In this document: piece by piece, positions 3,125-26,319 of the stretch | How the letters are laid out: each line of letters opens with the position of its first letter | How positions within the stretch are numbered: position 1 is the first letter of the stretch | Source of the DNA: Photobacterium sp. CCB-ST2H9 | Lineage (GTDB): Bacteria > Pseudomonadota > Gammaproteobacteria > Enterobacterales > Vibrionaceae | Direction: 5' to 3' | NCBI RefSeq assembly: GCF_023151555.2 | Contig: NZ_CP100425.1 | Coordinates: 186,001-250,000 of the forward strand | DNA length: 64,000 bases | Made by a program: the position numbers and the translations under genes | Notes under the pieces: generated by a model | Seen by the model: only the letters and a program-made list of their open reading frames with translations | The model's database searches: none | What the model was told of the DNA's origin: nothing

Positions 3125-3354
3125 ACCTGCTCCTTCATGGCTGTCCCTCATGAATCAATCACTAAGCAGTGTGCTTATTGGTATTTTTATGTCATGTGCG
3201 CACTGTTCTTATTAAATATAGTCAGCAGAAAGCAGGGGGTAGGTGAAGCTGCAGGTAAAGTCATACAAAAGTAATAAACGGGGAGATGCTGATGCGCTGA
3301 AAATGCGGATGTCGCCGGCTCTTCTCGGGAAGCTGAAGAACCGGCGGGTCAGGG

Positions 3355-4871: not shown

Positions 4872-6470
4872 ATGAAGGGATCAAGTCGTTGTGAGACGGA
4901 AGATGAGGCATTTCTTTATCTGAGAAATAATGTCTTTATTGAGCCATTAGTCGAACATTGGTACGCATGGCACTATTTGCTTTCTCCTGTTGCTCGTTCT
5001 TTTTTTATGAGGAAAAACAGGAAGCAATTAAGATCATTTTTAAAATATCCTGAATTTCATAGTGGTATTTCCAGTGGGAAAGTGAGCACGGTCAGATTAT
5101 CCATGGATGATGTGTTCAGTGTGGAACAATACCTGGATGGCAACCAACAGCAAGAAGCGCAACAAGAACAGCTACTTTCTGCTGTCGAAAAGCTTGATGA
5201 ATTAGTTTCACAATTTCAAGGTGACAGTTTAGAGCCTCTTTATCAGGAAATTCCATCCGAATTGAAAGGCAGGGCTGAGCTTTACTATGCCCGGAATCAG
5301 AGCGGCGCATACCGTCTTTTTGAAAATGCATTTGATGGGGTGTTTGACCGGTGTGAAAGTGTATTATTCACATTAAAAACGGAGCACACCAAACGTCCGC
5401 CAGTGTTTAATACACCACGTTTGTCCTGTCATGAAACTCAGTTTTTGATTGATGTTGATTTTAAAGAAAAAATACTGGATAAAATTTTTGAGGCGAGACG
5501 AACTCCGGTCGATTTCAATAAGTTTTGCCGGGAAATGAATCTGTCTGACGAAGCGAAGCAGCAGTTCAGAATATTGTTCACCTCAGAGTGTGAACACAAA
5601 GAACCGTCAGCACCCAGCCATGAAACGATTCGTTATTTTGGTCATGCGACTTTGCTGATTGAGACTTCGTCTGAATCACTGCTGATTGACCCCTGGATTC
5701 AGAGTGAATCCTTTGAAAAAGATGGGAAAACATCATATTCGTTATCTGATTTACCTGAGCATATTGACTATGTTGTGATCACTCATGGGCATGCGGATCA
5801 CTTTAATGTCGAAACCTTACTGCAAATCAGACATAAAGTGGGGCAGATTATTGTTCCTAAAAGTTCTGGTGACATGATTGAAGACCCGTCACTGGCCAAG
5901 ATACTCAAGCAAATCGGCTTCGGGAATGTGATCGAAGTGGATCCGTTTGAGAAAATTCAGGGAAATACTTTTCAACTGCATACCCTTCCTTTTCTGGGAG
6001 AGCATGGTGACCTTCGGGTAGATGCGAAGTCATCTTATTATATTGAAACAGATTCCGAGCAGCTGCTTATATTATCGGACTCGAAATTTATTCAGGCAGA
6101 AATTTATCAATATCTGCTCGATAATACGCTCAAAGTGAGCAAGATGTTTGTCGGGATGGAGTGTGAAGGTGCGCCATATACCTGGCTGTATGAGCCCGTA
6201 TTAAATCAAGGTCATCAACCGGAGTACGCAAAAAACAGACGCTTAACTGGCTGTGACTGTGATGAAACTGAACAACTGATTCAATTGATCAACCCTGATT
6301 CTGTATTTGTATATGCGATGGGCCTTGAACCATGGCTGGAATATTTAATTGGGAAGCCAGCAACCTTTGATGACTATATTGTTAGGGAATATAAACGCTT
6401 AGAGGAGAAAATGTCTCTGGAAGACAGGCCGCTTAAGCTTTTATATTGGTCTGAAGAAATTTCAATTTGA
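4872..6470 (+). CDS. CmlA-type diiron beta-hydroxylase (metallo-beta-lactamase fold), NRPS tailoring
   Basis: 532 residues, the same length I recall for CmlA, which beta-hydroxylates an amino acid held on an NRPS carrier protein in chloramphenicol synthesis. The N-terminal half (about 1-245) is the CmlA-type docking domain. The C-terminal half is a metallo-beta-lactamase fold with THGHADHF giving His305, His307, Asp309 and His310, then Glu377 (FLGEHGD) and Asp403 (LSDSK). These fall on the same residue numbers I remember as iron ligands in CmlA. The last CmlA ligand (His468 from memory) is not at that position; the only later His is 448. Predicted role: oxygen-dependent beta-hydroxylation of a carrier-bound residue. 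First gene of the operon, 13 bp before the next. An ordinary hydrolase is unlikely given the N-terminal domain and context. Confidence 0.82.
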   Translation: MKGSSRCETEDEAFLYLRNNVFIEPLVEHWYAWHYLLSPVARSFFMRKNRKQLRSFLKYPEFHSGISSGKVSTVRLSMDDVFSVEQYLDGNQQQEAQQEQLLSAVEKLDELVSQFQGDSLEPLYQEIPSELKGRAELYYARNQSGAYRLFENAFDGVFDRCESVLFTLKTEHTKRPPVFNTPRLSCHETQFLIDVDFKEKILDKIFEARRTPVDFNKFCREMNLSDEAKQQFRILFTSECEHKEPSAPSHETIRYFGHATLLIETSSESLLIDPWIQSESFEKDGKTSYSLSDLPEHIDYVVITHGHADHFNVETLLQIRHKVGQIIVPKSSGDMIEDPSLAKILKQIGFGNVIEVDPFEKIQGNTFQLHTLPFLGEHGDLRVDAKSSYYIETDSEQLLILSDSKFIQAEIYQYLLDNTLKVSKMFVGMECEGAPYTWLYEPVLNQGHQPEYAKNRRLTGCDCDETEQLIQLINPDSVFVYAMGLEPWLEYLIGKPATFDDYIVREYKRLEEKMSLEDRPLKLLYWSEEISI

Positions 6471-6483
6471 TATTAAGTTAGCG

Positions 6484-7518
6484 ATGCGTATGGAAAAGTA
6501 TAAGACATATCAGTTAACGACTGAAGACCTTGAGTTCATCTATCATGCTTGTCATCAGTTGATAGAAAAACATGATTCGGTTGAAACAGACAGTTTCGCC
6601 AGAGATTGTGCGGTCTATGCCATGGAACTCAGCCGGAATTTGAGAGAGGACGTATTAGATTTCAAAAATACGGCTCATAGCTATGCAGCATTCTTAATTC
6701 ATGGCCTTCCGATCGATATTGAAAATATTCAGACACCCAATACATGGGACTGTAACTGGCATCATTCTGAGACGTTTACATATGAAGTCATCCATTCATT
6801 AGTCTCCTGCCTGTTCGGCGAAATTTTTGGGTGGTCAACGCAAGAAAATGGCCGCTTTATGCGCTATGTGGTGCCGATCAAAGCAGATGCTTATGAGCAG
6901 CTGGGGTCAAGCAGTTCAGCTGAACTGGACTGGCATACGGAAGAAGCTTTCCATCCAACGCCAGCTGATTATGTTTCGTTGATGTGTTATCGCAATACGG
7001 AGCAAGCAGCGACATCATTATGCCATGTCGATGAAATTGTCAGTCAGTTAGATGGGAAAACAATTGATATTCTGTTCAGCAAGTCTTTTTGTATTGCGCC
7101 GGATACGTCACATCACGTCAAAGAAAATAAAAGTGATCACTGGGATATCGATATTCATAAGTACCATATGAGTGCTGAAGCTAAGTATGTCGATACACCG
7201 ATCTCAATTTTATACGGGAATCGGGAGCGGCCTTTTATGCGAGCAGATCTGCCTTATATGGCAGTGCTTGGTGAAAATAAAGACGCTGAAATGGCACTTG
7301 AAAAATTCAAGTCGGTTGTGAACCAATCTCTGATTGATGTCTGTCTTACTGAGGGACAGATCATGCTGATTGATAACAGAAGGGCTGTGCACGGCAGGCG
7401 TCAGTTTTCCGCGAAATATGATCATTATGGCCGATGGTTAAAAAGAATTAATATCATCAGGGATCTGCGTGCTTTAACCTCAGAATTTAACCAGCTGTGC
7501 GACAGACGCATTGTATAA
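6484..7518 (+). CDS. Fe(II)/2-oxoglutarate amino-acid beta-hydroxylase of the VioC/AsnO type
   Basis: 344 residues, family length about 330-360. The facial triad is visible as His151-x-Glu153 (LDWHTEEAF) and His303 (RAVHGRR), with Arg317 in GRWLKRINI binding 2-oxoglutarate. The HxE variant and the IDNRRAVHGRR block are hallmarks of the clavaminate-synthase-like arginine/asparagine/lysine C3-hydroxylases VioC, OrfP and AsnO. These act on free amino acids in viomycin, streptothricin and CDA synthesis. It probably supplies a beta-hydroxylated polar amino acid (Arg, Asn or Lys; not decided) to an adenylation domain. It follows the CmlA-like gene closely and precedes the flavoenzyme by 11 bp. The start has only a weak ribosome site; ATG at 6490 is an alternative. 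Confidence 0.87.
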   Translation: MRMEKYKTYQLTTEDLEFIYHACHQLIEKHDSVETDSFARDCAVYAMELSRNLREDVLDFKNTAHSYAAFLIHGLPIDIENIQTPNTWDCNWHHSETFTYEVIHSLVSCLFGEIFGWSTQENGRFMRYVVPIKADAYEQLGSSSSAELDWHTEEAFHPTPADYVSLMCYRNTEQAATSLCHVDEIVSQLDGKTIDILFSKSFCIAPDTSHHVKENKSDHWDIDIHKYHMSAEAKYVDTPISILYGNRERPFMRADLPYMAVLGENKDAEMALEKFKSVVNQSLIDVCLTEGQIMLIDNRRAVHGRRQFSAKYDHYGRWLKRINIIRDLRALTSEFNQLCDRRIV

Positions 7519-7529
7519 GGAATTTGATT

Positions 7530-9092
7530 ATGCATCATGAATATATCATTATTGGCGCTGGACCCGCTGGATTACAGCTCGCTTATTATCTCGAGAAATC
7601 AAATGAAGATTATTTGATTCTGGAAAAGGGTGATTGCTCCGGAAATGCATTTAAAACGTTACCGAAGCATGGCAAGCTGATTTCTATTAATAAAGTTTAT
7701 ACAGGCTATAATGATGATGAAATCAATCTTCGTTGGGACTGGAATTCGTTATTAAATGATGAAGGATTTCTTTTTAAACATTACTCTGAGAAATATTTTC
7801 CTGATGCAAAAGATTTAGTTCAGTATCTGAATGATTTTAAAGATAAGTTTGGACTGAAGGTGACTTACAATGCCGATATTGTATCCATTGATAAAGATGA
7901 ACACTTTTCATTAAAGGATGCTGACGGTAAGGTTTACACATGTGAGAAACTCATTATCGCGACTGGATTGGCAAAAGAAAATAAGCCTTGTTTTCCTGGC
8001 AGTGAATATGTGAAAACTTACACGAAAGCCTCAATTAATCCTGATGATTATAAAAACAAATCTGTTTTGATCTTAGGAAAAGGCAACTCTGCTTTCGAAA
8101 CGGCTGATAATTTGGTTGAAACCGCATCTGTCATCCATCTGTTAAGCCCGACACCAGTGAAGCTGGCCTGGAAAACACATTATGTCGGGCATTTGAGAGC
8201 AGTGAATAACAATATTTTAGATACCTATCAGTTAAAGTCGCAGAACACCATCCTTGATGCTGAAGTGACAAAAATCACCAAAGACAATGATAAGTATATT
8301 GTTGATTTTTCTTATACTCACGCGAATGGACAGCACTGGCAGATTGTTGTCGATGAGATTATTTCTTGCATCGGTTTCTCTTTTGACGACAGTATGTTTC
8401 AAGGTGCTGCAGTCCCTCAGATTACAGAGAATAAGAAATATCCGAGAATGACAGAATTCTGGGAATCTACCAATGTTGAGGGGATGTATTTCGCCGGAAC
8501 GATCATGCATATGCGTGATTATAAGCAGTCGTTTTCTGGTTTCATACATGGATTCAGGTACAACGTGAAAGCATTAGCTGAAATATTAAAAATGAAGCAA
8601 GGCAAAGATGCGTTTCACCGTGAGAGATTACATTCATTTGAATCTGTCTATGAAAAAATCATGTACCGGATTCATAGTAACTCTTCGCTATATCAGCAGC
8701 CTGGATTTATTAGCGATGTGCTGCTTATCAATGATGGCAATGTTGAATATGTTGTCGATATGCCGGTTGATCTCATTGAAAAGATATATCAGAAATCAAG
8801 CCATATCCGATTCACATTTGAATACGGCAAGAAAGAGCATCCCGATCCATTTAATGTTATCCGGATGCCGGATGATGGCGACAGCAGTACATTTATCCAT
8901 CCTGTGTTCCGGGTCTACCAGGATGGTGTCATCGTAGAGGAGTACCATATCCCTGAAGACTTGCAGAATGAATGGGATAAGGAAATGTATACGACTCCTT
9001 TTCAAAGTTTCTTGAAAATGGTTTTGCCATTGGAAAGGAAAAACATGTCTCAAGGTGAGAGACATGAAACGTTAGATAACTATTGTTCATAA
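7530..9092 (+). CDS. FAD/NAD(P)H-dependent oxidoreductase, FOXRED2/flavin-monooxygenase-like
   Basis: 520 residues. FAD-binding GAGPAG occurs at residues 9-14, followed by YLEKSNEDYLILEKG. A second Rossmann motif, LILGKGNSAFETAD, lies near residue 180, with an IIATGLA strand before it. This is the two-dinucleotide-domain plan of flavin monooxygenases and the FOXRED2-like family. The C-terminal about 130 residues have no motif I recognise. Likely role: N- or C-oxidation of a precursor amino acid or of the peptide; substrate unknown. ATG 7530 was chosen over an upstream GTG at 7497 because AAGGA lies 8 bases before it and the frame then clears the previous stop. This gene is strikingly AT-rich (17 of 60 bases are G or C in 7681-7740). 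Confidence 0.8.
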   Translation: MHHEYIIIGAGPAGLQLAYYLEKSNEDYLILEKGDCSGNAFKTLPKHGKLISINKVYTGYNDDEINLRWDWNSLLNDEGFLFKHYSEKYFPDAKDLVQYLNDFKDKFGLKVTYNADIVSIDKDEHFSLKDADGKVYTCEKLIIATGLAKENKPCFPGSEYVKTYTKASINPDDYKNKSVLILGKGNSAFETADNLVETASVIHLLSPTPVKLAWKTHYVGHLRAVNNNILDTYQLKSQNTILDAEVTKITKDNDKYIVDFSYTHANGQHWQIVVDEIISCIGFSFDDSMFQGAAVPQITENKKYPRMTEFWESTNVEGMYFAGTIMHMRDYKQSFSGFIHGFRYNVKALAEILKMKQGKDAFHRERLHSFESVYEKIMYRIHSNSSLYQQPGFISDVLLINDGNVEYVVDMPVDLIEKIYQKSSHIRFTFEYGKKEHPDPFNVIRMPDDGDSSTFIHPVFRVYQDGVIVEEYHIPEDLQNEWDKEMYTTPFQSFLKMVLPLERKNMSQGERHETLDNYCS

Positions 9093-9102
9093 GGAAAATA
9101 TC

Positions 9103-9183
9103 ATGAAAAAGTCAAACGTACAGAAAAAAGCGAAAATCAGCCGTAACAAGAATGGCCAGTACTTAGGCAACCTGATCGGCTAA
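9103..9183 (+). CDS. 26-residue lysine-rich peptide (possible precursor, scaffold or leader peptide)
   Basis: ATG at 9103 to TAA at 9181-9183, with AAGGA 7 bases upstream. This is a stronger ribosome site than most genes in the locus have. The peptide starts MKKSNVQKKAK and ends GQYLGNLIG. The first two thirds are strongly basic (7 Lys, 1 Arg) and the tail is neutral and hydrophobic. It has no Cys, Ser/Thr cluster or signal peptide. It lies 10 bp after the flavoenzyme and is followed by a perfect hairpin. I do not recognise a family. Options are a ribosomal substrate for the locus enzymes, a scaffold on which a product is built, a small regulatory or toxic peptide, or a translational leader for the next gene. 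It is too short for MbtH. Confidence 0.65.
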   Translation: MKKSNVQKKAKISRNKNGQYLGNLIG

Positions 9184-9190
9184 AACCGGT

Positions 9191-9216
9191 ATGGTCCCCA
9201 CATCTGTGGGGACCAT
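9191..9216 (+). repeat. Perfect 12-bp inverted repeat with 2-nt spacer between peptide gene and next gene
   Basis: ATGGTCCCCACA, TC, TGTGGGGACCAT: a fully matched hairpin-forming repeat. No T-run follows, so it is not a classical terminator. Immediately downstream is GGAGG (9219-9223) and the ATG at 9228. Likely roles are 3'-end protection or processing of a peptide mRNA, partial termination, or an occlusion switch on the next ribosome site. Confidence 0.75.
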
Positions 9217-9227
9217 ATGGAGGACTT

Positions 9228-10310
9228 ATGATTGTAATAAGACCAGAAAAATATAAGCAGTTGGGTGAGTCTGAAAACTGTGATTTTGTCCTGCTGACGA
9301 ATAGTGAATTCTCTGACAAGTTCGAAATATCAACGGAGAATGACTATCTATCAACAAAAATAATTGCTTGTGATACACCAGAAAGCTTTCATGACATTCT
9401 GGACCATCAAAAATTAGCTCATCAAACCCATTTCCTTGTCATTTCTCCTCATGTCTTATTCTCTTCGCCACCGGCAGAGAAAATTGCAGAGAAGTGTAAG
9501 ATTATTTCAATGCCATGTAACTCTACAGAAATATTCTTGGACGATATAAGTTATTTCTTAGAGAAGATGGAATTGACTGATCCTGATGCTCAAAAAGCTT
9601 GGGCGGATTATTTCTTTGACCATATCGAAGAATCCGACCACATCCAGTTTGTTGATAAAAAGAATGGTTGCGAAGCCGTTTTTCTTCACGACAGTGACGA
9701 ATATTGCTGGTTTGAGCAATTGGGCCGTCTCAGCTGGGGAGAGCAGCAATTTGTGCCCTCTGGTGAAATCAGCGTATTGCCGCTGTTTCACGGAAACTAC
9801 AATGCTGAAAAACGGTTAAATATTCAGGGCGAAATTGCTTTTCGCGGGTATCCCATTGTGAACAGTGGCTCTGTGTCTTTTTTAAGAGAAGACCAGAATA
9901 AAATTTTCGATGCATTAGAACCACTGTATGAAGTGCCGGTTATTGCAACCGTCGAGCATGGCGTGATTACTTCACTACGTAGTGACATCGAAAATCATCC
10001 CGCGATTGTGATGTTAGAGAAGTTATTTGATATCGACTCGCGCTACAGAATCATTTGGGAGATTGGCTTCGGGACCAATCAGGATATCGATTTCCAGAAA
10101 GGAAACCGTTCACCCAATGAATGTTATGGCGGTAGCAATGGCACTGTCCACTGGGGGCTCGGCTTAACGCCGTGGACCCAATATCACATCGATATTATTT
10201 GTCCGGACACTGTCGTCTATACGTCAGACGAAGTCATGATTGCCGGTGAAGTGAAAGAGAAAAAGTCGCTGAGACGTGTGAAATCAGCGGGCTGTCCATG
10301 TATTAGTTAA
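9228..10310 (+). CDS. Protein with M29-aminopeptidase/NicX-like metal-site motifs, unknown role
   Basis: 360 residues. The first about 150 residues match nothing I know. The C-terminal part shows PSGEISVLP (Glu180), HGVITSL, EIGFGTN (278-284), NECYGG (Glu298), GTVHWGLGL (His308) and QYHIDI (His320, Asp322). In order and spacing these resemble the metal ligands of M29 aminopeptidases and NicX-type non-haem iron dioxygenases. It may therefore be a metallopeptidase or a ring- or bond-cleaving metal enzyme. Position directly after the peptide gene makes processing of that peptide, or release of the NRPS product, attractive but unproven. GGAGG lies 4 bases before the ATG. The C-terminus ends with a CPC motif. 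Confidence 0.6.
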   Translation: MIVIRPEKYKQLGESENCDFVLLTNSEFSDKFEISTENDYLSTKIIACDTPESFHDILDHQKLAHQTHFLVISPHVLFSSPPAEKIAEKCKIISMPCNSTEIFLDDISYFLEKMELTDPDAQKAWADYFFDHIEESDHIQFVDKKNGCEAVFLHDSDEYCWFEQLGRLSWGEQQFVPSGEISVLPLFHGNYNAEKRLNIQGEIAFRGYPIVNSGSVSFLREDQNKIFDALEPLYEVPVIATVEHGVITSLRSDIENHPAIVMLEKLFDIDSRYRIIWEIGFGTNQDIDFQKGNRSPNECYGGSNGTVHWGLGLTPWTQYHIDIICPDTVVYTSDEVMIAGEVKEKKSLRRVKSAGCPCIS

Positions 10311-10355
10311 TACGCGGGAAAATCAGACCTTAAATTGGATTTTGAAGGTAGCACA

Positions 10356-12110
10356 ATGGAATGTAATTCACTGTCACAGTTCGGTACTGTCCTCGAAAAG
10401 CTCAAAGACAATGCGGAAAGAACACCAGATAAGCTAGCTTTAAATGGTGATTTAGGGTCTATCTCTTATGCTCTGCTGGAAGCGCAATCTGATCAGCTGG
10501 CGTCTCTGCTGATCAGCGATAAAGGGATCCGGGCGGGAGATATTGTACCGCTCGTTGCCGGCCGGACAAATGACAGCCTGATCTGTATGCTGGCGCTGTT
10601 AAAGGCGCGGGCTGTCGTTTATCCGATTGAGGTAACCAATTTCAATGCGGATACTCAGAAAGCCTTGATGAATGATTCTGGTCTTTCTTTTTCAGAACCT
10701 TTGGTGGCATCTGATCTGGGGATCACACTTGAGAACGCTGCATTTGCTCAACCCGTTCTGGATTCAGATGCGGACGATTTACCTGAGACCGGTGTTGAAT
10801 CGGGTGGATTTCTTTATTTCACCTCCGGCAGTACGGGTAAGAAAAAGCCTGTTTTTGTCAGTGCTGAAAACATCAGCCAGCGTATTGCCAATACGACCAG
10901 AGATTTGGGTTTCGACCATCACCTGAATGCACTCTGGTGTTGCAGCGTTTCATTCGATATCTCTCTTTTTGTCACGCTCTCCACCTTATATTGTGGTGGC
11001 ACTCTCATCACCCCGCCGCAGGTACACCTGAATGAAATCTCCGGTTATCTGAATACCATTAAGCAATACAGCGTCAACTTTATTAATCAGGTGCCTTCGT
11101 TTATTCAGGCGCTGTGTGAGTTTTCCGATTTTGAAGAAAAGGTGAAACTGAAGTATCTGTTTCTGGGCGGCGATGTTTTAACGAAAGATGTGCTGGCGCA
11201 GACTCTGTCCTGTTTTGATGCTGATGTTGTCGCGAATATTTATGGTCCGACTGAAACAACCATGCTTGCGACTCACTATGTCATCGATCAGGAAAATTAT
11301 CACAACCTGAAAAGCTTACCGATTGGCCAACCTTTCAGCGGCACTGTCATTGAAATTCTCGATGAGCATATGCAGCCCATGCCAGACGGCGAGGTCGGTG
11401 AAATTTATATTCGCGGGATAGGTATGTGCCGGTATCTGAATCATGATAACAGCAGCTTTATCGCCTGTGACTCAGGAGCTGTGGCCTATCAGTCTGGCGA
11501 TTTCGGATATATTGATTCCAATGGTGACATTGTTTTCGAAGGGCGACGGGACGATCAGGTCAAGATATCCGGCGTCAGACTCAGTCTTTCGGAAATCGAA
11601 AATCAAATATTAAAGACCAATTATGTTGTGGGCAGTGTCCGTATCACCAGTCTTTCAGATGATGTAAAGGCAATTTTAAATACTGACTTACTCGTGTTTT
11701 ATATTCTTGCTGATTCGGCAGAAGCAGGGCAGGTTCCCGTGTTTACAAATGCCGTGCCTTCTTCTGTCAGACATAAGGCCATTCAGCTGGAGCACTTTAC
11801 TTACAATGAAAATGGAAAAGTGGCGCTCAAAGAGATGACCACGACTTACGTCCATTTTCTGACTGAGCAAAAAGCGGCTGCTCCTCTGTCTCATGATGAT
11901 CCCCGTGAACAATCGGTTAAAACCATTCTGGGTATTGATCACTTTGACCATTCGAAATCGTTCAGGGAGTTAGGGGGTTCCAGTTTAGTGGCCCTGAAAT
12001 TGAGATCCGAGATGAAGAAGCAATTCGGCATCGAGATCAATATCAGAGACCTCCTTACATCGAAGCAGTCGTTAAAAGATCTGATGGATGGAGCAGTATC
12101 AGATGCATAA
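10356..12110 (+). CDS. NRPS loading-type module: adenylation-carrier (A-T)
   Basis: 584 residues. Adenylation domain about 15-500: TSGSTG at about 156-161, NIYGPTETT, YQSGDFGYID, GRRDDQVKISGVRLS, and NENGKV with the catalytic Lys. The phosphate loop continues KKKPV instead of the usual PKG. Carrier domain about 515-580 has FRELGGSSLVAL with the phosphopantetheine Ser near 543. Read against GrsA, the binding-pocket residues are D-I-F-N-F-G-I-M-L-K (manual alignment), matching no specificity I know. With no condensation domain it should load residue 1. ATG 10356 has GAAGG 8 bases upstream and was preferred to TTG 10335. Its end overlaps the next gene by 8 bases. Confidence 0.92.
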   Translation: MECNSLSQFGTVLEKLKDNAERTPDKLALNGDLGSISYALLEAQSDQLASLLISDKGIRAGDIVPLVAGRTNDSLICMLALLKARAVVYPIEVTNFNADTQKALMNDSGLSFSEPLVASDLGITLENAAFAQPVLDSDADDLPETGVESGGFLYFTSGSTGKKKPVFVSAENISQRIANTTRDLGFDHHLNALWCCSVSFDISLFVTLSTLYCGGTLITPPQVHLNEISGYLNTIKQYSVNFINQVPSFIQALCEFSDFEEKVKLKYLFLGGDVLTKDVLAQTLSCFDADVVANIYGPTETTMLATHYVIDQENYHNLKSLPIGQPFSGTVIEILDEHMQPMPDGEVGEIYIRGIGMCRYLNHDNSSFIACDSGAVAYQSGDFGYIDSNGDIVFEGRRDDQVKISGVRLSLSEIENQILKTNYVVGSVRITSLSDDVKAILNTDLLVFYILADSAEAGQVPVFTNAVPSSVRHKAIQLEHFTYNENGKVALKEMTTTYVHFLTEQKAAAPLSHDDPREQSVKTILGIDHFDHSKSFRELGGSSLVALKLRSEMKKQFGIEINIRDLLTSKQSLKDLMDGAVSDA

Positions 12111-16425: not shown

Positions 16426-16427
16426 TT

Positions 16428-19400: not shown

Positions 19401-19484
19401 TTCCTGGAGGAACCTGAAACCAGTTTTTCAGCATTATCTGGCAATTTCATGTTCTCTGGCCGGAATGCGTCTTCGCATGAGTGA
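16428..19484 (+). CDS. NRPS A-T-C
   Basis: 1018 residues. Adenylation domain about 1-490: TSGSTGRPKG near 152, YVYGPTECA, LTGDLVKRRPDG, GRKDRQIKIQGYRVE and NQNGKIDR. Carrier domain about 505-570: FFLLGGTSVLAI, with Ser near 533. Condensation domain about 590-1010: VHHTVYDGWS, a fully canonical HHxxxDG. Pocket residues by manual alignment: D-V-W-F-V-G-V-I-F-K, not assigned. It accepts the dipeptide from the preceding protein as residue 3 is loaded, and its own condensation domain joins the tripeptide to residue 4 on the next protein. Begins 2 bp after the previous stop. Confidence 0.93.
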   Translation: MYSVNQSRLLQSLESIAARHCQKTAVIYQDQAVTYAELYALAEEYQQRLHRCSPGSDYVYLYLDKGIELIAAILAVIQSGRAFIPVDANTPPLRLNQILDDVAHACVLTEKRLAANIDSRIPFDCLDEATEGKDTSLPGKATTDRSSCYAIYTSGSTGRPKGAIISHQALLNVIEQSIAEMAIASGSKILQFSSIGFDVSVWEIFTSLLSGSTLVIATNAQRYDLDALQTLIHDQAVDTAFFMSTFLTHLLPGQFPTIKTVVTGGEMFGEKIVAQWADGKALYYVYGPTECAIFQSIVPCAKNGPAVPTVGHPIANMHFHLYDVAGSEGDVFELGISGIGVGYGYLNRETLTKEKFVQDHQAGVIYLTGDLVKRRPDGELDFYGRKDRQIKIQGYRVEIGEIENTVLRQQGVESCCVVVVELAQSKLLYAYVASLPGSDVNETCLLASLKAALPGYMIPAHIKLTDRLPKNQNGKIDRNLLKEQATESLKNQSARSPEVLTEHEAILAEYWKKLLKVETVGQDDDFFLLGGTSVLAIRLVAELAGYALKFSDILELRTLAKVAEKMVPVVSVTEETTAVNAQTGKTKATHTQASIWFASLSSERTDIYDLSYAYQIYGNIDCALLLKTLTALLNKHESLRTSLRLEGEQILLEVGDAEKMIRQHDLSAEPAEIVQQRVEEALRQPLDVEHGSFSAVDVFDAGDEIFLVLKVHHTVYDGWSHDVFLKELESIYLGYCHGDASAAAEEALPVAGIYQPKVVTDTEREAAWLYWRQILNHDAVATVPVCAERNSVPSGHGGQSSRKLDARLAASLRQFALDNKQTLFVVLASLVQLVIRSYSASEQVRLGTVRANREQKARLDQIGLYAETFLLNNVITEQSSLSHVVSACERSLIESARHDCISYIELVSEFPSAAIQYWVTVVETEFEPFHEETSIQWKKLPLEVETNLFDLSFIFELDNDDIDLNLVFARDVYSEGKISEISDRFEQIAACFLEEPETSFSALSGNFMFSGRNASSHE

Positions 19485-19511
19485 TTTCACCAGACTGTTT
19501 AGGATTTGCGA

Positions 19512-21245
19512 ATGTCTGTTTTTAAAAGTGTGCTAGAGCTCTATCGCAGCTCGCCAAGTTTTCTCAGTGAACATCCTGCAATTTATACGGATAGCGGGGT
19601 GATGTCATATCGTGAATTAGAGTACCGGGCAAATGCTGTCCGGGATCTCTTATCCCGGCAAGGGGTTTGCCAGGGAGAGGTTGTCAGTGTTTGTCTGCCC
19701 AAATCAGCAGATGCTGTGGCGGTCATGCTTGGCGTGATGAAGGCCGGAGCGGTCTACCACCCATTGAATTTTGATGCGCCGCCTGAGCGCAATCATCGGA
19801 TTCTGGCTGATGTGCAGCCGAAGATCATCGTCCATACCGACAGCACATGCTGTTATGCCAGACACTATCCGGTGATCGCTCTTTCTGCAGATCTTGCGCA
19901 TGCGAATCCGGGGCAGGACGCACTTATCAATCCAGAAGATGCGGCTTATGTTGTCTCGACGTCGGGCTCAACAGGGCATCCGAATTCAGTCGTGATTCGT
20001 CATGAATCGATTGAAAATTACATCACCTGGAAGCTGGCGTATTACCAGTTTCATGCCGGGAGTATGAAGTTACAGTTTGCTCCCTTGTCGTTTGACAGCG
20101 CTATCTCGGACATTTTGTCGATGTTGTGCTGTGGCGGTGCTTTGTATCTGGTTTCGGCAGACAAGCGTGCGAACTGTGACTATATCATCGATGTGATCGG
20201 CCGGTATCCCATCACGTCTTTTGCCATTGTTCCGAGCCTGTATAAGCGACTGTTGTGCTTTTCCGGTGATGTCGCGCATTCACTGGATACAATTACACTG
20301 GCAGGGGAAGAGGTCACGGCAGAGGTACTGGCGGAGCACAGGCGTCAGTTCCCGGCTGTCAGGGTGGTGAATGAATACGGTCCATGCGAGTGTACGATTG
20401 GTGTCGCCGCATCGGATGTCACGCATCATGCGGGTTCGGAACCGCCGCCTATCGGCCGTGCTATTGCCAATACTGATGTGTTCATCCGCGACGCAGCTCC
20501 GGATGCCGCCGGGCGATATACCGGAGAAATTTGTATTGTGGGTATCAGTGTCGGAAACGGTTATTTAGGCAGAGAGCCTGAAACATGTCTGAAGTTCCTG
20601 CATCATCCCGACACTAATGCGCCATATTACTGCACGGGTGATCTGGGATATGTGAATTCAGCAGGTGAGCTGGTCTTTGCCGGCCGGAAAGAGCGTACAG
20701 TCAAGGTGGCCGGAAACCGGGTCAATCTGATTGAAGTTGAAACGGCCATGAATCAGGTACAAGGTGTTTCGCAATCCGCGGTTATTTTCCATGAAGAGCG
20801 GTTAAAAGCACTTTGTGTGGCAGATCGAACTGTGGCATCAATTCGCCATGCTCTGTCTGAGAAGATTCCGGATTATATGATACCTTCGGTCATTCAATTA
20901 TCGGAAACTTTGCCAATCAGCCAAAATGGCAAGAAAGATTATCATCAGATAGCAGATATATTTTCACAGCAGGCCAAACAAATGGATACGACTGATTTTC
21001 GGGTTGAAAACGTCGTGACGCAGTACTGGAAAAAAATATTAAATGTTCAATCTTGCGAGCTGACAGACAATTTTTTTGATATTGGCGGGAATTCTCTCCT
21101 GTTTATCGATTTAATAATGGAAATAACAAAAGCTTTTGATATCAGTATTGACCTGTCACAGCTGCTGGAAAAGTTAACGCTTCAGGATCAAATATCCTAT
21201 ATTGAGAACTTAATAAAAGATAAGTCTAAGGAAATAAATGAATAA
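19512..21245 (+). CDS. NRPS terminal A-T module without release domain
   Basis: 577 residues. Adenylation domain about 1-490 with TSGSTGHPNS near 150; the usual PKG Lys-Gly is replaced by Asn-Ser. It also has NEYGPCECT, CTGDLGYVN, GRKERTVKVAGNRVN and SQNGKKDY. Carrier domain about 505-570 has FFDIGGNSLLFI. Nothing follows it: no thioesterase, reductase or terminal condensation domain, so the chain must be freed by another protein or by attack from an outside nucleophile. Pocket residues by manual alignment: D-S-S-A-T-A-E-I-G-K, sharing D-S and Glu322 with the second adenylation domain. ATG 19512 has AGGA 7 bases upstream; a TTG at 19506 was rejected. Overlaps the MFS gene by 8 bases. Confidence 0.92.
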   Translation: MSVFKSVLELYRSSPSFLSEHPAIYTDSGVMSYRELEYRANAVRDLLSRQGVCQGEVVSVCLPKSADAVAVMLGVMKAGAVYHPLNFDAPPERNHRILADVQPKIIVHTDSTCCYARHYPVIALSADLAHANPGQDALINPEDAAYVVSTSGSTGHPNSVVIRHESIENYITWKLAYYQFHAGSMKLQFAPLSFDSAISDILSMLCCGGALYLVSADKRANCDYIIDVIGRYPITSFAIVPSLYKRLLCFSGDVAHSLDTITLAGEEVTAEVLAEHRRQFPAVRVVNEYGPCECTIGVAASDVTHHAGSEPPPIGRAIANTDVFIRDAAPDAAGRYTGEICIVGISVGNGYLGREPETCLKFLHHPDTNAPYYCTGDLGYVNSAGELVFAGRKERTVKVAGNRVNLIEVETAMNQVQGVSQSAVIFHEERLKALCVADRTVASIRHALSEKIPDYMIPSVIQLSETLPISQNGKKDYHQIADIFSQQAKQMDTTDFRVENVVTQYWKKILNVQSCELTDNFFDIGGNSLLFIDLIMEITKAFDISIDLSQLLEKLTLQDQISYIENLIKDKSKEINE

Positions 21246-22515
21246 CGAAAATGGAATCAGCAAGAATAAAAACTTCCTTTTGCTGGTACAGGGAATGTTT
21301 GTCAGTGTCTTCGGTGCACAGTGTTACTTTATTGCCGAATCTCTGGTTGTAAAACATCATACGGAATCCGGCGTGATGGTCGGAATAACACTGGCACTGT
21401 CAGCCATTCCTTATCTGATCTTTGGGACGCTCGGCGGCGCCTTTGCAGATCGCTATAACAGAAAAAACATCATTGTATGGTGTGATGTCATTTCAGCGCT
21501 GGCGGTGTTGAGTCTGGCTTTTGCGCTCTTCCTCGACATAGATTTCCTGGTTGTCCCGTCTGTCATCCTGGCTGGAATCACGCTCAACATTGTGATGTGC
21601 TTTTTTAACCCGGCCAGCCGGGCAATGATGCCGATGCTGGTGGATAAAAGCCAGTTACTGAAAGCCAATTCGTTGTTCAGAACGTTAAAGAACATCAGTG
21701 AGGTCCTGGGCCAGTCTTGTGCCGGATTTCTTTATACCTTGCTGGGTCCGGCAATGCTGTTCTTTATCAACGGGATCACGTATTTGTCTTCAGCCGCTTC
21801 TGAATCAAGGATTAAAGTTGCGTCACCGGAACACGCTGCGGATGAAGCGCAAGGTAAGCAGGGCCTTGGGGCACAAATCAAAGAAGGTTTCTCGATTGCC
21901 GCCAAAGTGCCGGGTTTGTTAGCTGTGATTATCGCGCTGGGTCTGATGGATTTATTTCTGGCCCCTTTAATGACCTTTTTACCGTTCTTTGTTGAAAACT
22001 CTCTGGGTCTGAGCACTTACTGGTTCGGGATTATGTTCGCCGCGCTGTCCGTCGGGGCCGTATTGGGCAGCTCTCTGAGTGGCCTGATCAAAATCCCGGA
22101 GCGCATTGCCCCGGTATTGATTCCAGCATTTCTGGTCGGCACCGGTTTATCCCGATTATTCATGGGACTTTCCGGGAGTCCCTGGCTGGTCTTTGTCTGC
22201 ATTTTAATGGAAACCGCGACAGCCGTTATTTTCTCCATTCGTGCAGAAGTGATTATTCAGAGTAACGTCGAATCAAAATACCACGGCCGGGTCTTTGGAT
22301 TGCTGGGCATGGTGATGGGCGTCTTTACTCCGATCGGTATGGCGCTGGGCGGTGTACTGGTTGATTTAGCGCAGGACCGTCTGGCGGATTATATTACCGG
22401 CTCGGGTATTGCACTGACGCTGATTGCCGTTTCATTCATGCTGAGCCGTAATTACCGGCAGTTCTTCAAGGTCAAAAAGGATGACTCCGTCCAAAATGAT
22501 GAAGCAATTGCCTGA
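21238..22515 (+). CDS. MFS exporter, EntS-like, probably for the locus product
   Basis: 425 residues with about 12 hydrophobic segments. The cytoplasmic loop motif after the second segment reads GGAFADRYNRKNI, the conserved G-x3-D-R-x2-R of major facilitator proteins. The general pattern resembles the EntS/enterobactin exporter and macrolide-efflux branch. An inner-membrane proton-driven efflux pump for the NRPS product is the natural reading. Its start (ATGAATAA) overlaps the stop of the last NRPS gene and has AAGGA upstream, so translation is coupled to synthesis. The frame ends before a non-coding gap of 112 bases. Confidence 0.88.
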   Translation: MNNENGISKNKNFLLLVQGMFVSVFGAQCYFIAESLVVKHHTESGVMVGITLALSAIPYLIFGTLGGAFADRYNRKNIIVWCDVISALAVLSLAFALFLDIDFLVVPSVILAGITLNIVMCFFNPASRAMMPMLVDKSQLLKANSLFRTLKNISEVLGQSCAGFLYTLLGPAMLFFINGITYLSSAASESRIKVASPEHAADEAQGKQGLGAQIKEGFSIAAKVPGLLAVIIALGLMDLFLAPLMTFLPFFVENSLGLSTYWFGIMFAALSVGAVLGSSLSGLIKIPERIAPVLIPAFLVGTGLSRLFMGLSGSPWLVFVCILMETATAVIFSIRAEVIIQSNVESKYHGRVFGLLGMVMGVFTPIGMALGGVLVDLAQDRLADYITGSGIALTLIAVSFMLSRNYRQFFKVKKDDSVQNDEAIA

Positions 22516-22627
22516 GTCTATTGCGCTGTAAGTTGAGTCAAATATTCAAAACAACATTCTGTTTTTCCGGCGGGATGTTGTTTGTTACTTATTTCATTTC
22601 TGATACCGGTTTGAAAGGGGTTTTCAA

Positions 22628-23680
22628 TTGGACCATCGTGACTTAGGACTGAAACAGTCGATATTTCAGCATATCGGGGAACACAGCATTGAAGCGCTGT
22701 TCCGGGTCTCCAAAGACTATGGAAAAAAGTACGGCGTGATCGGTGTTGTAAATGGCGAACTGACGGAGCGAGAAGTTTCCCGTCTTCAGCTTGAATCAGA
22801 TGAACGTCCTGTGATTGGTGACTGGGTGATTTGCCAGGAACTGCAGGGGGAGCATGTGATCACTGAGCTTTTGCCTCGTGAAACTCAGCTTGCCCGGACC
22901 CGCTCCAGCGGAACGCAGCAGGCAATCGCGGCCAATATCTCTCATATTTTCATTACGACCTCCATGAATGCGGAGTTCAATCTGAACCGCCTGGAGCGCT
23001 ATCTGGTCCTGGCTAAAGCGTCGGGTGTTCAGCCGACGATTGTGCTCACGAAGCGCGATTTGGTGGATGACCCGTCGGAGTATGTCGATCAAATTACCCG
23101 GCTTGATCCCAGCCTGCTGGTATTACCGATCAGCACCCAAACGGGCGAGGGACTCGAAGAGTTGCTGTCCTTAATTCAAAAAACTGATACCTGTGTGCTG
23201 ATTGGCTCGTCAGGGGTCGGAAAAAGCTCGCTGATCAACTTCCTGCTCGGGGAAGAGGTACTGGAGACGCTGGCCGTCAGTGATGAAGGGGCCCGGGGCA
23301 GCCATACAACGTCGAACCGATTCCTGTTCATGCTGCCGACCGGCGGACTAATTATCGATTCTCCGGGGTTACGCCAGGTTGGCATCGGGGCATCGACGAA
23401 AAATGTTGAGGAAACCTTCTCCGATGTTGAGTTGCTGGCAAATGACTGCCGTTACCGTAATTGCACCCATGAGAAGGAAGAGGGCTGCGCCATTCAGGCC
23501 GCATTAGCTGACGGCAGTCTGTCACCCAGACGTTATAAGTCGTATCTGAAGCTGATGACTGAATCACGTTATGCGGATGACCCTGAAGCATTCCAGCGCG
23601 AGCGGCACAGACAGTGGCGTCAGGTGACCAAGAACCGGAAAGAAAAAGAGAAAGTTCTGGGACGGTACAAAGAGTTTTAA
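22628..23680 (+). CDS. RsgA-family (YjeQ) ribosomal small-subunit GTPase, second-type copy
   Basis: 350 residues with the circularly permuted GTPase order: G4 (LTKRDL) before G1 (GSSGVGKSSLIN) and G3 (DSPGL), preceded by an OB-fold-like region. The zinc motif C-x4-C-x-H-x5-C is intact (CRYRNCTHEKEEGC). RsgA binds the immature 30S subunit and helps its late maturation. The switch region reads GSHTTSNR rather than the usual GRHTTT, and the Lys/Arg-rich N-terminus of housekeeping RsgA is absent. The gene starts with TTG, supported by AAGGGG 7 bases upstream. Location in an NRPS locus, away from the usual orn or psd neighbourhood, suggests an extra copy. Self-protection against a 30S-binding product is possible. 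Confidence 0.85.
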   Translation: MDHRDLGLKQSIFQHIGEHSIEALFRVSKDYGKKYGVIGVVNGELTEREVSRLQLESDERPVIGDWVICQELQGEHVITELLPRETQLARTRSSGTQQAIAANISHIFITTSMNAEFNLNRLERYLVLAKASGVQPTIVLTKRDLVDDPSEYVDQITRLDPSLLVLPISTQTGEGLEELLSLIQKTDTCVLIGSSGVGKSSLINFLLGEEVLETLAVSDEGARGSHTTSNRFLFMLPTGGLIIDSPGLRQVGIGASTKNVEETFSDVELLANDCRYRNCTHEKEEGCAIQAALADGSLSPRRYKSYLKLMTESRYADDPEAFQRERHRQWRQVTKNRKEKEKVLGRYKEF

Positions 23681-23789
23681 CCATTCCCGTAACTGTCTTT
23701 CCTTATGTTTATCGGGTGGTTTCTGAGAGTCAGTGAGTACAGATGAAAGCTTCACTTGATGAAGCCCCCTTTGCCAATTGAACAGAACG

Positions 23790-24206
23790 ATGGAATTTAC
23801 TTTAAAAATTTACAGCAATGACATTGCCGTCTATCGCCTGTCTGATCTCTCGGGTCTGTCATTTCCGGAAGATTGCGGATTTTTTAATTTATCCGTAACG
23901 GGTGATGAAATCTCGTTAATGTGTGATGTGCAGCGTTTGTCGTCTGAATACCAGGGATGGCTGGACCGGAAAGCAACGTCCGTCAGCAAAGACTGGTCCT
24001 GCCTGCGGGTGGATGGGGATCTGCCTTTTGATATTGTCGGCGTGATCGCGACCTTAACCGGCCACATCGCCTCGATAGGCATCAGTCAGTTTGCTGTCTG
24101 TACGCATGATCGGGATTATGTTCTGGTGCCGAATACGCAGCGGCATCAAGTGATCACTCACTTAAAGACGGTTGGATATCACTTCGTCGATGGTGACCCT
24201 GTGTAA
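23790..24206 (+). CDS. ACT-domain protein (COG3603/CASTOR-like)
   Basis: 138 residues. The sequence FDIVGVIATLTGHIASIGIS is the helix-strand core of an ACT domain, and an N-terminal LSGLSFPEDCGFFNLSVTGDEISLMC segment fits the second ACT-like unit of the small amino-acid-sensing COG3603 family. Such proteins bind amino acids; this one may sense or buffer a precursor. It sits 15 bp before the dioxygenase gene and is probably cotranscribed with it. The ATG at 23790 was chosen over a TTG at 23778, but neither has a good ribosome site. Confidence 0.7.
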   Translation: MEFTLKIYSNDIAVYRLSDLSGLSFPEDCGFFNLSVTGDEISLMCDVQRLSSEYQGWLDRKATSVSKDWSCLRVDGDLPFDIVGVIATLTGHIASIGISQFAVCTHDRDYVLVPNTQRHQVITHLKTVGYHFVDGDPV

Positions 24207-24221
24207 GCGAGGGATGGGACC

Positions 24222-25199
24222 ATGAGCAGGCAAGGAAGCATCAGGATAACGACGGTATTCCCGGAGACGAATTTTATTGCGCGTGTTGAAGCGTCCAGTC
24301 ATGAGATCGGGCTTGCAGCCTGGGTTCGCCAAAATGAAGCACTGGTAAAGAGGCAACTGAAGGAGCAGGGAGGGATCTTGTTCAGGGGCTTTGATATGCC
24401 GGATGATGCTTCATTTCTGAATATGGTGAGGGAGCTGCCATTTGAACCGGTTGATATCAGCCAGTTTGAAGAGGCCACGGAAAGAGAAAAAGTTGCGACG
24501 AATCTGTATACGACCACAGCTTTTCCGGCCAGCGAGACGATTTCATTGCACAGTGACTACTCATCGTCGCTGGATATTTGTCAGTACCTTTGTTTTTTCT
24601 GCCTGACTCCTCCGGGCACCGGTGGTCAAACCCCGGTTGCGGATAACCGCCGGATCTATCACAGGCTGAATCACACATATCGTCAACAGTTTGAAACGCT
24701 GGGCTGGCGATTGGTCCGCCATTACGGCACGGGGCTCGGACTGGACTGGCAGGATACTTTTTTAACGGATTCCCGCCAGGCCGTGGAGAAACATTGTCAG
24801 CATCATGACGTAACAGCCAATTGGGATGGTGATGAATTAAGGACGACACAAACACGAACTGCGGTGATTCTTCATCCTGAAACCGGGGAAAAGTGCTGGT
24901 TTAATCATATTGCTTTCTGGCATGCGGCGAATTTACATCCCGACATTGCTGATGCGATGATCGATGCGGTTGGTAAAGAAAAATTGCCCTTTCAGACGTT
25001 TTTTGGGGATGGTAGTGATATTCCGGATCCGGTGGCACATCATATCCGGGATATTTTACTAGAGGAAAAGCGCATGTTCGACTGGCAGCAGGGCGATGTA
25101 CTTTTATTAGATAACATTTTGACCAGCCATGGCCGGGAATCTTTTTCCGGAGACAGAAGTATCCGGTTATCTGCGTTTCATCAAATGAAGCGGGAGTGA
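24222..25199 (+). CDS. TauD/SyrP-like Fe(II)/2-oxoglutarate dioxygenase
   Basis: 325 residues. The triad is His110-x-Asp112 (SLHSDYSS) and His303 (TSHGRESF), with Arg315 for 2-oxoglutarate. The GGILFRGFDMPDDASF N-terminal block is typical of the TauD/TfdA superfamily and of SyrP-like enzymes, which hydroxylate carrier-bound Asp in syringomycin synthesis. It is longer than true taurine dioxygenases (about 280 residues). Given the NRPS next door, beta-hydroxylation of a carrier-bound residue is the first guess. A sulfonate-cleaving role is the alternative, since a TauE-like gene follows. GAGGG lies 8 bases before the ATG. Confidence 0.82.
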   Translation: MSRQGSIRITTVFPETNFIARVEASSHEIGLAAWVRQNEALVKRQLKEQGGILFRGFDMPDDASFLNMVRELPFEPVDISQFEEATEREKVATNLYTTTAFPASETISLHSDYSSSLDICQYLCFFCLTPPGTGGQTPVADNRRIYHRLNHTYRQQFETLGWRLVRHYGTGLGLDWQDTFLTDSRQAVEKHCQHHDVTANWDGDELRTTQTRTAVILHPETGEKCWFNHIAFWHAANLHPDIADAMIDAVGKEKLPFQTFFGDGSDIPDPVAHHIRDILLEEKRMFDWQQGDVLLLDNILTSHGRESFSGDRSIRLSAFHQMKRE

Positions 25200-25302
25200 T
25201 TTTTTCTTTTTGATTCAATCGATTTATCCCCGCTCACTTCTTGAAACGGTTGTGTTGATTCTGTCGTGAATTCTCGTATTCATCTTTTTCCGAGGTGCTC
25301 AG

Positions 25303-26319
25303 GTGAGTGCATTGAAAAGTGTTTTCAAAGAAAATTTCCTTCCTCAGCAACTGAGTCCGCAGGTTCATTTCTCCAGAACTCTGCTGATTTGTTTTTCTCT
25401 TTTGATTGTATGGTCTGCTGTCTTTCTTAAACCGGGCTGGCTTGAATTATTCGCAGAACATATCGTGATTGCGGTGATGATGGTTGTTGGCTCTTTTGTG
25501 GCAGGTTCAACTCCCCTGGGCGGTGGTGCTGTTGCCTTTCCTGTGATGACGAAACTGCTGTCGACACCCCCGGAATCATCAATGCACTTCTCATTGATGA
25601 TACAAAGCATCGGCATGACGTCCGCATCCATTCTGATCTTGTTGAGCCGCCATCAGTTGCCCTGGCGAGGGATCGCACTCTATCTGGTCGGTTCATTTTC
25701 AGGGTTTTATCTTGTCACCCAGTATTTGTTCGCCACTTTAAGCAGCGCAGAAGTAAAAGTGATGTTCAGTCTGAACATCGCAATTTTCTTGCTGGTTTAT
25801 TTATTTGGTTATTACGCGGATAAATTTAATGAAAGGCAGATTCAGGTTTGCCGCAGGAAGGTGATCACTCTGGTGACATTCGGGTGCCTCGGCGGCGGGA
25901 TGAGTGCTTTTATCGGTTCTGGTGCGGATCTGTTTGCGTTTGCATTGTTCACCATTTACTTTCGGTTAAATATCGTGCAGGCAACGCAGGCCAGTGTGAT
26001 CATTATGGCGACGACGTCCATTTTCGGACTGATCACTTTCCTTTTTCAGGGAACTCAGCCTGCTGAAGTCATTTTTGAATATTGGTATGTTGCCGCTCCC
26101 GTGGTGATTTTCGGTGCTCCGATAGGCGCCTGGGTTTGCTGCAAAGTCAGCAAGAAAGTGATTCATCACATGATCATTGCCCTTTCATCTCTGGAGTTAG
26201 CCTCAACCTTACTGCTGTTGCCATTGGGTGAACGCTCGGCATTGATTTTCTGCTTTCAGCTATTAGTGATGTTTGCACTGTTTAGCTGGAATAAGAAGCA
26301 GATGAGAACGTCAGGATAA
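25303..26319 (+). CDS. TSUP-family membrane transporter (TauE/SafE)
   Basis: 338 residues with roughly eight or nine hydrophobic segments. The GSFVAGSTPLGGGAVAFPV repeat and its second-half counterpart GGGMSAFIGSGADL mark the two-fold TauE/SafE (TSUP) family, which moves sulfite, sulfonates or related organic anions across the inner membrane. GTG start at 25303 with GAGG 7 bases upstream. It is the last gene before the terminator at 26378 and may belong to the biosynthetic locus or to a separate module with the dioxygenase. Substrate unknown. Confidence 0.8.
   Translation: MSALKSVFKENFLPQQLSPQVHFSRTLLICFSLLIVWSAVFLKPGWLELFAEHIVIAVMMVVGSFVAGSTPLGGGAVAFPVMTKLLSTPPESSMHFSLMIQSIGMTSASILILLSRHQLPWRGIALYLVGSFSGFYLVTQYLFATLSSAEVKVMFSLNIAIFLLVYLFGYYADKFNERQIQVCRRKVITLVTFGCLGGGMSAFIGSGADLFAFALFTIYFRLNIVQATQASVIIMATTSIFGLITFLFQGTQPAEVIFEYWYVAAPVVIFGAPIGAWVCCKVSKKVIHHMIIALSSLELASTLLLLPLGERSALIFCFQLLVMFALFSWNKKQMRTSG

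Follow-up and report, generated by a model that had tools for sequence, protein, structure and literature searches.

We analysed a 64,000-nt stretch of the genome of Photobacterium sp. CCB-ST2H9 (hereafter the window; positions 186001-250000 of contig C1, NZ_CP100425.1), which carries a nonribosomal peptide synthetase (NRPS) locus together with genes for a 26-aa micropeptide and an M29/NicX-like protein (Table 1). The genes between 4872 and 22515 form an operon-like run on the plus strand, spaced by 2-45 nt or slightly overlapping, in the order CmlA-type hydroxylase, VioC/GntD-like oxygenase, flavoenzyme, micropeptide, M29/NicX-like protein, four NRPS proteins, and a major facilitator superfamily (MFS) exporter. 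Beyond the hairpin at 22549-22583 lie rsgA, an ACT_7 gene, a TauD-family gene, and the gene of a TauE transporter. An initial annotation of this DNA had described an NRPS locus with these named parts, and all of them were found in place by a Pfam scan of 17 window proteins and by reading of the open reading frames (ORFs).

Table 1. Genes and hairpins of the NRPS locus, in window coordinates (A, adenylation; T, carrier; C, condensation domain; 2OG, 2-oxoglutarate; RiPP, ribosomally synthesized and post-translationally modified peptide).
Feature	Position	Strand	Basis
CmlA-type diiron beta-hydroxylase	4872..6470	+	CmlA_N and metallo-beta-lactamase (Pfam)
VioC/GntD-like Fe(II)/2OG oxygenase	6484..7518	+	TauD (Pfam); best NCBIfam matches GntD, VioC
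FAD/NAD(P) flavoenzyme	7497..9092	+	Pyr_redox_3, 170 bits (Pfam)
26-aa basic micropeptide, C-terminus NGQYLGNLIG, candidate RiPP precursor	9103..9183	+	ORF reading
Hairpin directly after micropeptide stop, 13 bp	9184..9227	+	-26.8 kcal/mol, z -4.74
M29/NicX-like, putative CgnB-related metalloprotein	9228..10310	+	Family search, invariant residues
NRPS A-T (ATG at 10356)	10335..12110	+	Pfam, motifs
NRPS C-A-T-C	12088..16425	+	Pfam, motifs
NRPS A-T-C	16428..19484	+	Pfam, motifs
NRPS A-T, without thioesterase	19506..21245	+	Pfam, motifs
MFS exporter	21238..22515	+	Pfam
Hairpin between MFS and rsgA genes, possible main-operon end	22549..22583	+	z only -1.94 for 112-nt gap
Extra RsgA-type ribosomal GTPase, candidate self-protection	22628..23680	+	RsgA_GTPase (Pfam)
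ACT_7 protein	23778..24206	+	Pfam
TauD-family Fe(II)/2OG oxygenase	24222..25199	+	Pfam
TauE-type transporter, cluster membership uncertain	25303..26319	+	Pfam

We fetched 63 genome loci with the M29/NicX-like family and scanned their 1,148,954 bases for the peptide motif. The results showed that 56 of the 63 loci have a tiny basic peptide, ending in N-x-x-Y-x-G-x-L-x-G-stop, no more than 600 nt from an M29/NicX-like ORF, with 81 motif matches near such an ORF and 2 elsewhere, while two control motifs gave 0 matches, which rules out the micropeptide as a chance ORF. The two distant matches are probably the copies of L036, which has two peptide copies 0.7-0.8 kb upstream; the other loci outside the strict pattern are L001, with a close variant of the peptide, L002 and L003, with loosely similar small ORFs, and L018, L062, and L063, which are cut by contig ends. 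An identical 16-aa peptide is encoded by Acinetobacter, Ferruginivarius, and Paraburkholderia (the exact Acinetobacter peptide also on a Paraburkholderia plasmid), and since these same 16 residues are written in different codons, translation of the peptide and selection on it are very likely. Across the loci its C-terminus is fixed and its N-terminus variable; tandem copies occur in Acinetobacter (up to four) and in several Streptomyces (two or more), and in actinobacteria the peptide ORF lies downstream of the first M29/NicX-like gene. A hairpin with z<-2 follows the peptide at 42 of 83 sites, compared with 11 of 120 control sites, and in the Acinetobacter arrays it follows the last copy only. 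By analogy with RiPP precursors, such a hairpin may allow overproduction of the peptide relative to the downstream genes. The peptide-end pattern also matched 5 of 369 gammaproteobacterial genomes, including that of the window, and the reversed control matched about two dozen, so the matches beyond the window's genome are at chance level. The initial annotation had named the micropeptide and the M29/NicX-like protein only as sharing the locus with the NRPS genes; judged by their recurrence, they look like the conserved core of the locus.

The M29/NicX-like protein matched no Pfam family above cut-off, and 248 relatives were found at E<=0.001. In an alignment of 37 sequences, E180, E278, E298, and H308 are invariant, and H320 and D322 nearly so. 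The RiPP cluster for crocagin in Chondromyces crocatus (CgnA/CgnB/CgnC/CgnE) includes the peptide-binding protein CgnB, whose dinuclear-metal ligands are E161, E252, E274, H280, H291, and D293 (PMC10070186). We found that five of these six ligands are in register with the window protein (the numbers of the 6zsv chain being 8 above those of the paper), whereas E161 falls outside the aligned stretch and was paired with E180 of the window protein by motif order. With a 26-sequence family profile, CgnB (6zsv) was the only PDB match at E<=1; neither CgnB nor CgnE was found by the A1 family profile or by one distant relative as sole query, and comparison of the A1 with the A4 profile is not independent, A4 containing the window protein and five A1 members. 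UniRef gives the name 'Crocagin biosynthetic protein' to P0263 and P0290, which are distantly related to the version found on the Streptomyces plasmids described below. The kept metal-ligand positions argue that the M29/NicX-like protein would work like CgnB, although by sequence it is at most a distant relative.

In a plasmid collection, eight Streptomyces plasmid records contain a divergent M29/NicX-like relative (32-34% identity), and in all eight, one contiguous stretch holds an MFS gene, a GntD-like oxygenase gene, a small ORF, the M29/NicX-like gene, an ACT gene, and at least two NRPS genes. Absence of a gene from a plasmid here means that it is not listed, since the PLSDB gene tables are incomplete. 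By these comparisons, the window shares a gene set with the Streptomyces plasmid clusters. The plasmid small ORF encodes 40-46 aa ending in KYGKYDRLEG in the six translated loci (L106, L107, L109, L110, L113, and L114), and the stretch behind it gave -36 to -38 kcal/mol in the three that were folded. Both NRPS genes of NBC_01001 were scanned by Pfam and motifs, which gave the order A-T-C-A-T-C / A-T-C with no thioesterase, and the motif scans of NBC_00354 agree with this order. NBC_01546 and NBC_00162 have additional genes for an MBL-fold protein, a radical SAM protein, a stand-alone A domain, a 2OG-Fe dioxygenase, a prolyl-oligopeptidase-family protein, and rsgA; by Pfam, the MBL-fold gene of NBC_01546 is CmlA and its radical SAM gene is B12-binding. 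In the smaller plasmid clusters, the GntD-like gene is the sole oxygenase gene listed. The M29/NicX-like proteins of the two plasmid subtypes are 95% identical, indicating that the subtypes are related. The plasmid '2OG-Fe dioxygenase' was considered as a homologue of the TauD gene of the window and rejected, as BLAST found no homology.

The NRPS domain order A-T / C-A-T-C / A-T-C / A-T corresponds to 4 AMP-binding, 4 PP-binding, and 3 Condensation matches on four proteins (Pfam; 10335-21245), and thus Pfam and motifs bear out the four adenylation and three condensation domains first described. The carrier serines and the HHxxxD motifs of the C domains are intact. Neither a thioesterase nor a reductase release domain was found in the window NRPS proteins by Pfam and motif scan, and the single GxSxG of the last protein sits within its A domain. 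The tetrapeptide product proposed at first is weakened by this absence and by the NRPS of plasmid NBC_01001, which has three modules and a terminal C domain. We read the A-domain codes by eye from an alignment with GrsA numbering as DIFNLLIMLK (A1), DSNMVCEVWK (A2), DVWFVGVIFK (A3), and DSSATAEIGK (A4), the final K being that of the NGK motif; read in this way, they are unusable for specificity. Those of A2 and A4 faintly recall what we take to be histidine codes, too weakly for naming substrates.

Among the oxidative enzymes, the CmlA-type diiron hydroxylase and the flavoenzyme were confirmed as annotated. CmlA_N scored 138 bits in the 4872-6470 protein (above the gathering score, cut-off 25), whose nearest solved structures are 8a90 and CmlA; a protein of Photobacterium sp. 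R1 shares 98% identity with it, and a V. spartinae protein 85%. The protein at 6484-7518, first called a VioC-type hydroxylase, does belong to the TauD family with VioC among its best NCBIfam matches, but it stays below the equivalog cut-offs of both GntD (319 bits; cut-off 345) and VioC (268.5 bits; cut-off 418.6). Aligned to VioC, it keeps Asp268 and has Pro in place of Asp270, which we take to be, together, the guanidine-binding residues of VioC. Because Asp270 is not kept, plain arginine is doubtful as its substrate; the enzyme may have a free amino acid as substrate or work together with the peptide module. For the 'SyrP/TauD-like dioxygenase' at 24222, the TauD family stood, and identity with SyrP was not established. 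The number of oxidative enzymes is indeed unusual, as had been remarked, although action of all the oxygenases on the NRPS chain is unproven.

The same genome has two other RsgA genes, 37 and 38% identical to that of the window, and with three RsgA genes in the genome, the window copy as the only housekeeping one is ruled out. The window ACT_7 protein matches its plasmid-cluster relative with 33% identity over 69 aa (E 4e-9). Because the Streptomyces plasmid clusters share the gene set, the ACT gene probably belongs to the cluster, and rsgA perhaps does as well. That the window, like two of the plasmid clusters, has an additional RsgA suggests a product that may target the small ribosomal subunit.

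We also tallied the neighbours of the pair in the 63 loci, where the M29/NicX family itself is trivially present in 63/63, the loci having been fetched with it. A haem-oxygenase-like protein co-occurs in 35 loci, DUF2817 in 33, an LAL-type ATP-grasp ligase in 19, and an unnamed protein of about 255 aa in 35, pointing to a wider pathway around the M29/NicX-like gene. Genes of amino-acid exporters were found as well (AzlC-like in 7/63 loci, AzlD-like in 5/63).

Several further observations concern this gene family and its surroundings. In 55 of the 63 loci, one or more M29/NicX-like ORFs have a C-terminal CxC followed by no more than five residues (AGCPCIS in the window), and in 36 loci with two M29/NicX-like ORFs counted, this end is on the second only; some ORFs counted in this tally are fragments. 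The two plasmid M29/NicX-like proteins read (L106 and L109) do not have the tail, and four plasmid loci (L111, L112, L113, and L114) encode nearby a separate protein of 52-59 aa with RRRFTVQRGGCGCEG, as if the tail were detached. In a gammaproteobacterial metagenome-assembled genome (L019:1142-12138), Pfam found an aminotransferase near two M29/NicX-like genes and the peptide, and translations of the same locus read as an aldehyde dehydrogenase, an aspartate-semialdehyde dehydrogenase, an aspartokinase, and a short-chain dehydrogenase/reductase. An Enterobacter plasmid (L073) groups haem-oxygenase-like, M14 peptidase, aminotransferase, and U32 peptidase genes with no M29/NicX-like match. In Acinetobacter calcoaceticus (L004, 14348-19247), translations revealed genes like those of extracytoplasmic function sigma factors, FecR, and TonB receptors a few kb downstream of the peptide array and AzlCD.

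Taken together, we favour, with a probability of roughly 0.58, a hybrid cluster in which a RiPP-type module is joined with the NRPS line in one pathway. The sequences directly show the gene content, the catalytic and metal-site motifs, the conserved pairing of peptide and M29/NicX-like protein, and the return of the gene set on Streptomyces plasmids, whereas we infer that the peptide is a RiPP, how the two halves are joined, the chemistry, the substrates, the target, and the role of RsgA. The 26-aa peptide would probably be made in excess and bound by the CgnB-related dinuclear-metal protein, and its conserved C-terminal region would probably be modified, perhaps with the VioC/GntD-like oxygenase; the GntD-like enzyme is the likeliest partner because no other oxygenase gene is listed for the smaller plasmid clusters. 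The NRPS line A-T-C-A-T-C-A-T-C, with the stand-alone A-T, would build a short chain that the CmlA-type enzyme may beta-hydroxylate on the carrier protein. The two products would be joined or shared, and the lack of a thioesterase makes the last C domain the likeliest place for this; this terminal C domain would form the final bond, and its acceptor could be the stand-alone A-T, a free amine, or the peptide. The product would be exported by the MFS protein, and the extra RsgA would protect the ribosome. In a stricter form, the last C domain would take the micropeptide or a modified C-terminal fragment of it as acceptor, giving a covalent non-ribosomal/ribosomal chimera in place of thioesterase release, and the same would happen on the Streptomyces plasmids; we regard this form as rather unlikely.

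A number of results weigh against the hybrid cluster. In the fetched stretches, 59 of the 63 loci have no match to the window NRPS proteins, so the link between peptide and NRPS could be co-location, and the stand-alone A-T at 19506 may be no more than a fourth module. CgnB matches the family profile weakly (E 0.11), and the window peptide ends in NGQYLGNLIG rather than in the crocagin core Ile-Tyr-Trp. No strong hairpin follows 41 of the 83 peptide copies, among them most copies of the Streptomyces tandem arrays, which have few or none. As to the plasmids, the shared genes are only 24-40% identical to those of the window (BLAST), the KYGKYDRLEG end is only loosely like the window peptide, and for the window VioC-like enzyme the score with the plasmid GntD does not exceed that with VioC. 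Since the eight records fall into two subtypes, each made up of close copies, they amount to about two cases, with rsgA in one subtype only. A special kinship of the window RsgA with the plasmid RsgA is unsupported, as their identity of 39-40% does not stand out from the 35-39% seen with accessory RsgA proteins of relatives or from the values of up to 43% seen with those of Streptomyces.

The most serious rival, though still an improbable one, is a plain NRPS cluster for a hydroxylated tetrapeptide, in which the peptide module is an independent neighbour or the source of a free non-standard amino acid loaded by an A domain. Four A-T units and three C domains suffice for four residues, and the AzlC-like and AzlD-like exporters would fit a small amino-acid-like product of the pair; against this, the pair is embedded in the operon, spaced by 10-45 nt, it recurs with NRPS genes on all eight Streptomyces plasmid records, and thioesterase is absent from the window and the plasmid scanned alike. 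Distinctly less probable is that the micropeptide serves as a pearlin-like carrier scaffold to whose C-terminus an amino acid is added, modified, and cut off. Its fixed C-terminus and variable N-terminus are as expected for a scaffold, as is the co-occurrence of DUF2817 and LAL-type ATP-grasp genes in other loci, whereas no LanB-like peptide-aminoacyl-tRNA ligase (PEARL), ATP-grasp, or DUF2817 match was found among the 17 window proteins. That the small ORF and hairpin are an attenuator leader controlling the M29/NicX-like gene would agree with an ORF followed by a strong hairpin upstream of that gene, but amino acids conserved under free codon change, tandem copies, and the downstream position of the ORF in actinobacteria make it very improbable. 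A known pathway in disguise, of the viomycin, guanitoxin, or chloramphenicol type, can hardly be maintained despite the similarity to VioC, GntD, and CmlA, given the scores below the VioC and GntD equivalog cut-offs and the peptide, M29/NicX-like, and ACT genes, which to our knowledge are not part of these pathways.

Among known systems, the likeness to CmlA, VioC, and GntD is one of Pfam and NCBIfam families and of solved relatives. The crocagin cluster resembles the window in its short basic peptide beside an M29-like protein, in the set of metal ligands, and in the oxygenase genes nearby, and two of the Streptomyces plasmids share with it a prolyl-oligopeptidase-family gene. In crocagin biosynthesis, the CgnA dioxygenase acts on Tyr and Trp, and the metal site of CgnB is proposed to catalyse elimination at Tyr (PMC10070186). 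The window differs in its NRPS line, NRPS having 0 occurrences in the available main text of that paper. A looser parallel is the gvg cluster of Pseudomonas fluorescens WH6 for 4-formylaminooxyvinylglycine, which has an essential Lys-rich small ORF, gvgB (PMC8067088, PMC8064604), and whose haem-oxygenase-like gvgC recalls the gene found in 35 of the 63 loci; among the window proteins scanned, no carbamoyltransferase or haem-oxygenase-like Pfam match was found. Pearlins are similar in using a ribosomal peptide as small-molecule scaffold, and differ by the LanB-like ligase. The mangotoxin paper (PMC13185094), in the part available, proved unrelated.

The CgnB family and the mining of adjoining precursor peptides are already published: CgnB homologues were reported in about 100 genomes, with the metal site intact in the single-copy cases and putative precursors predicted via RiPPER (PMC10070186). 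In open-licence papers, we found no description of YLGTLLG-type peptides or of NRPS genes coupled to them, although the figure with five cluster types and the supplements of PMC10070186 may already include them; the earlier statement that no described pathway has this gene set therefore holds for the literature searched, with prior notice possible in those items. If the hybrid cluster is real, a cluster family with a CgnB-kind ribosomal-peptide module and an NRPS line would exist in a marine gammaproteobacterium and on Streptomyces plasmids, joining two peptide-making routes in one antibiotic-like pathway. The locus would then be a direct test case of whether an NRPS can pass its chain to a ribosomal peptide, and the peptide motif with the M29/NicX-like, GntD-like oxygenase, and ACT genes would give a handle for mining.

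To the origin of the locus, several comparisons are relevant. The GC content is 40-41% at 4.0-10.0 kb of the window, compared with 55-60% leftward. The M29/NicX-like gene was found only in its own genome among 52 same-genus genomes searched, and the TauD gene at 24222-25199 only in its own among 20, whereas the flanking yicC gene was found in 20 of 20. Because of the low GC and the restriction of these two genes to their own genome among those searched, the locus is a genomic island, and the cluster looks mobile. The closest M29/NicX-like protein among those listed is that of V. spartinae (95%; database clustered at 90%). Outside the cluster, one ORF at 911-3151 on the minus strand of the window fuses a GFO/IDH/MocA oxidoreductase with an NAD-dependent epimerase, and contig C1 of the same genome has two more large NRPS genes, at 159534-174359 and 1813152-1830929, with open frames of 5333 and 7036 aa.

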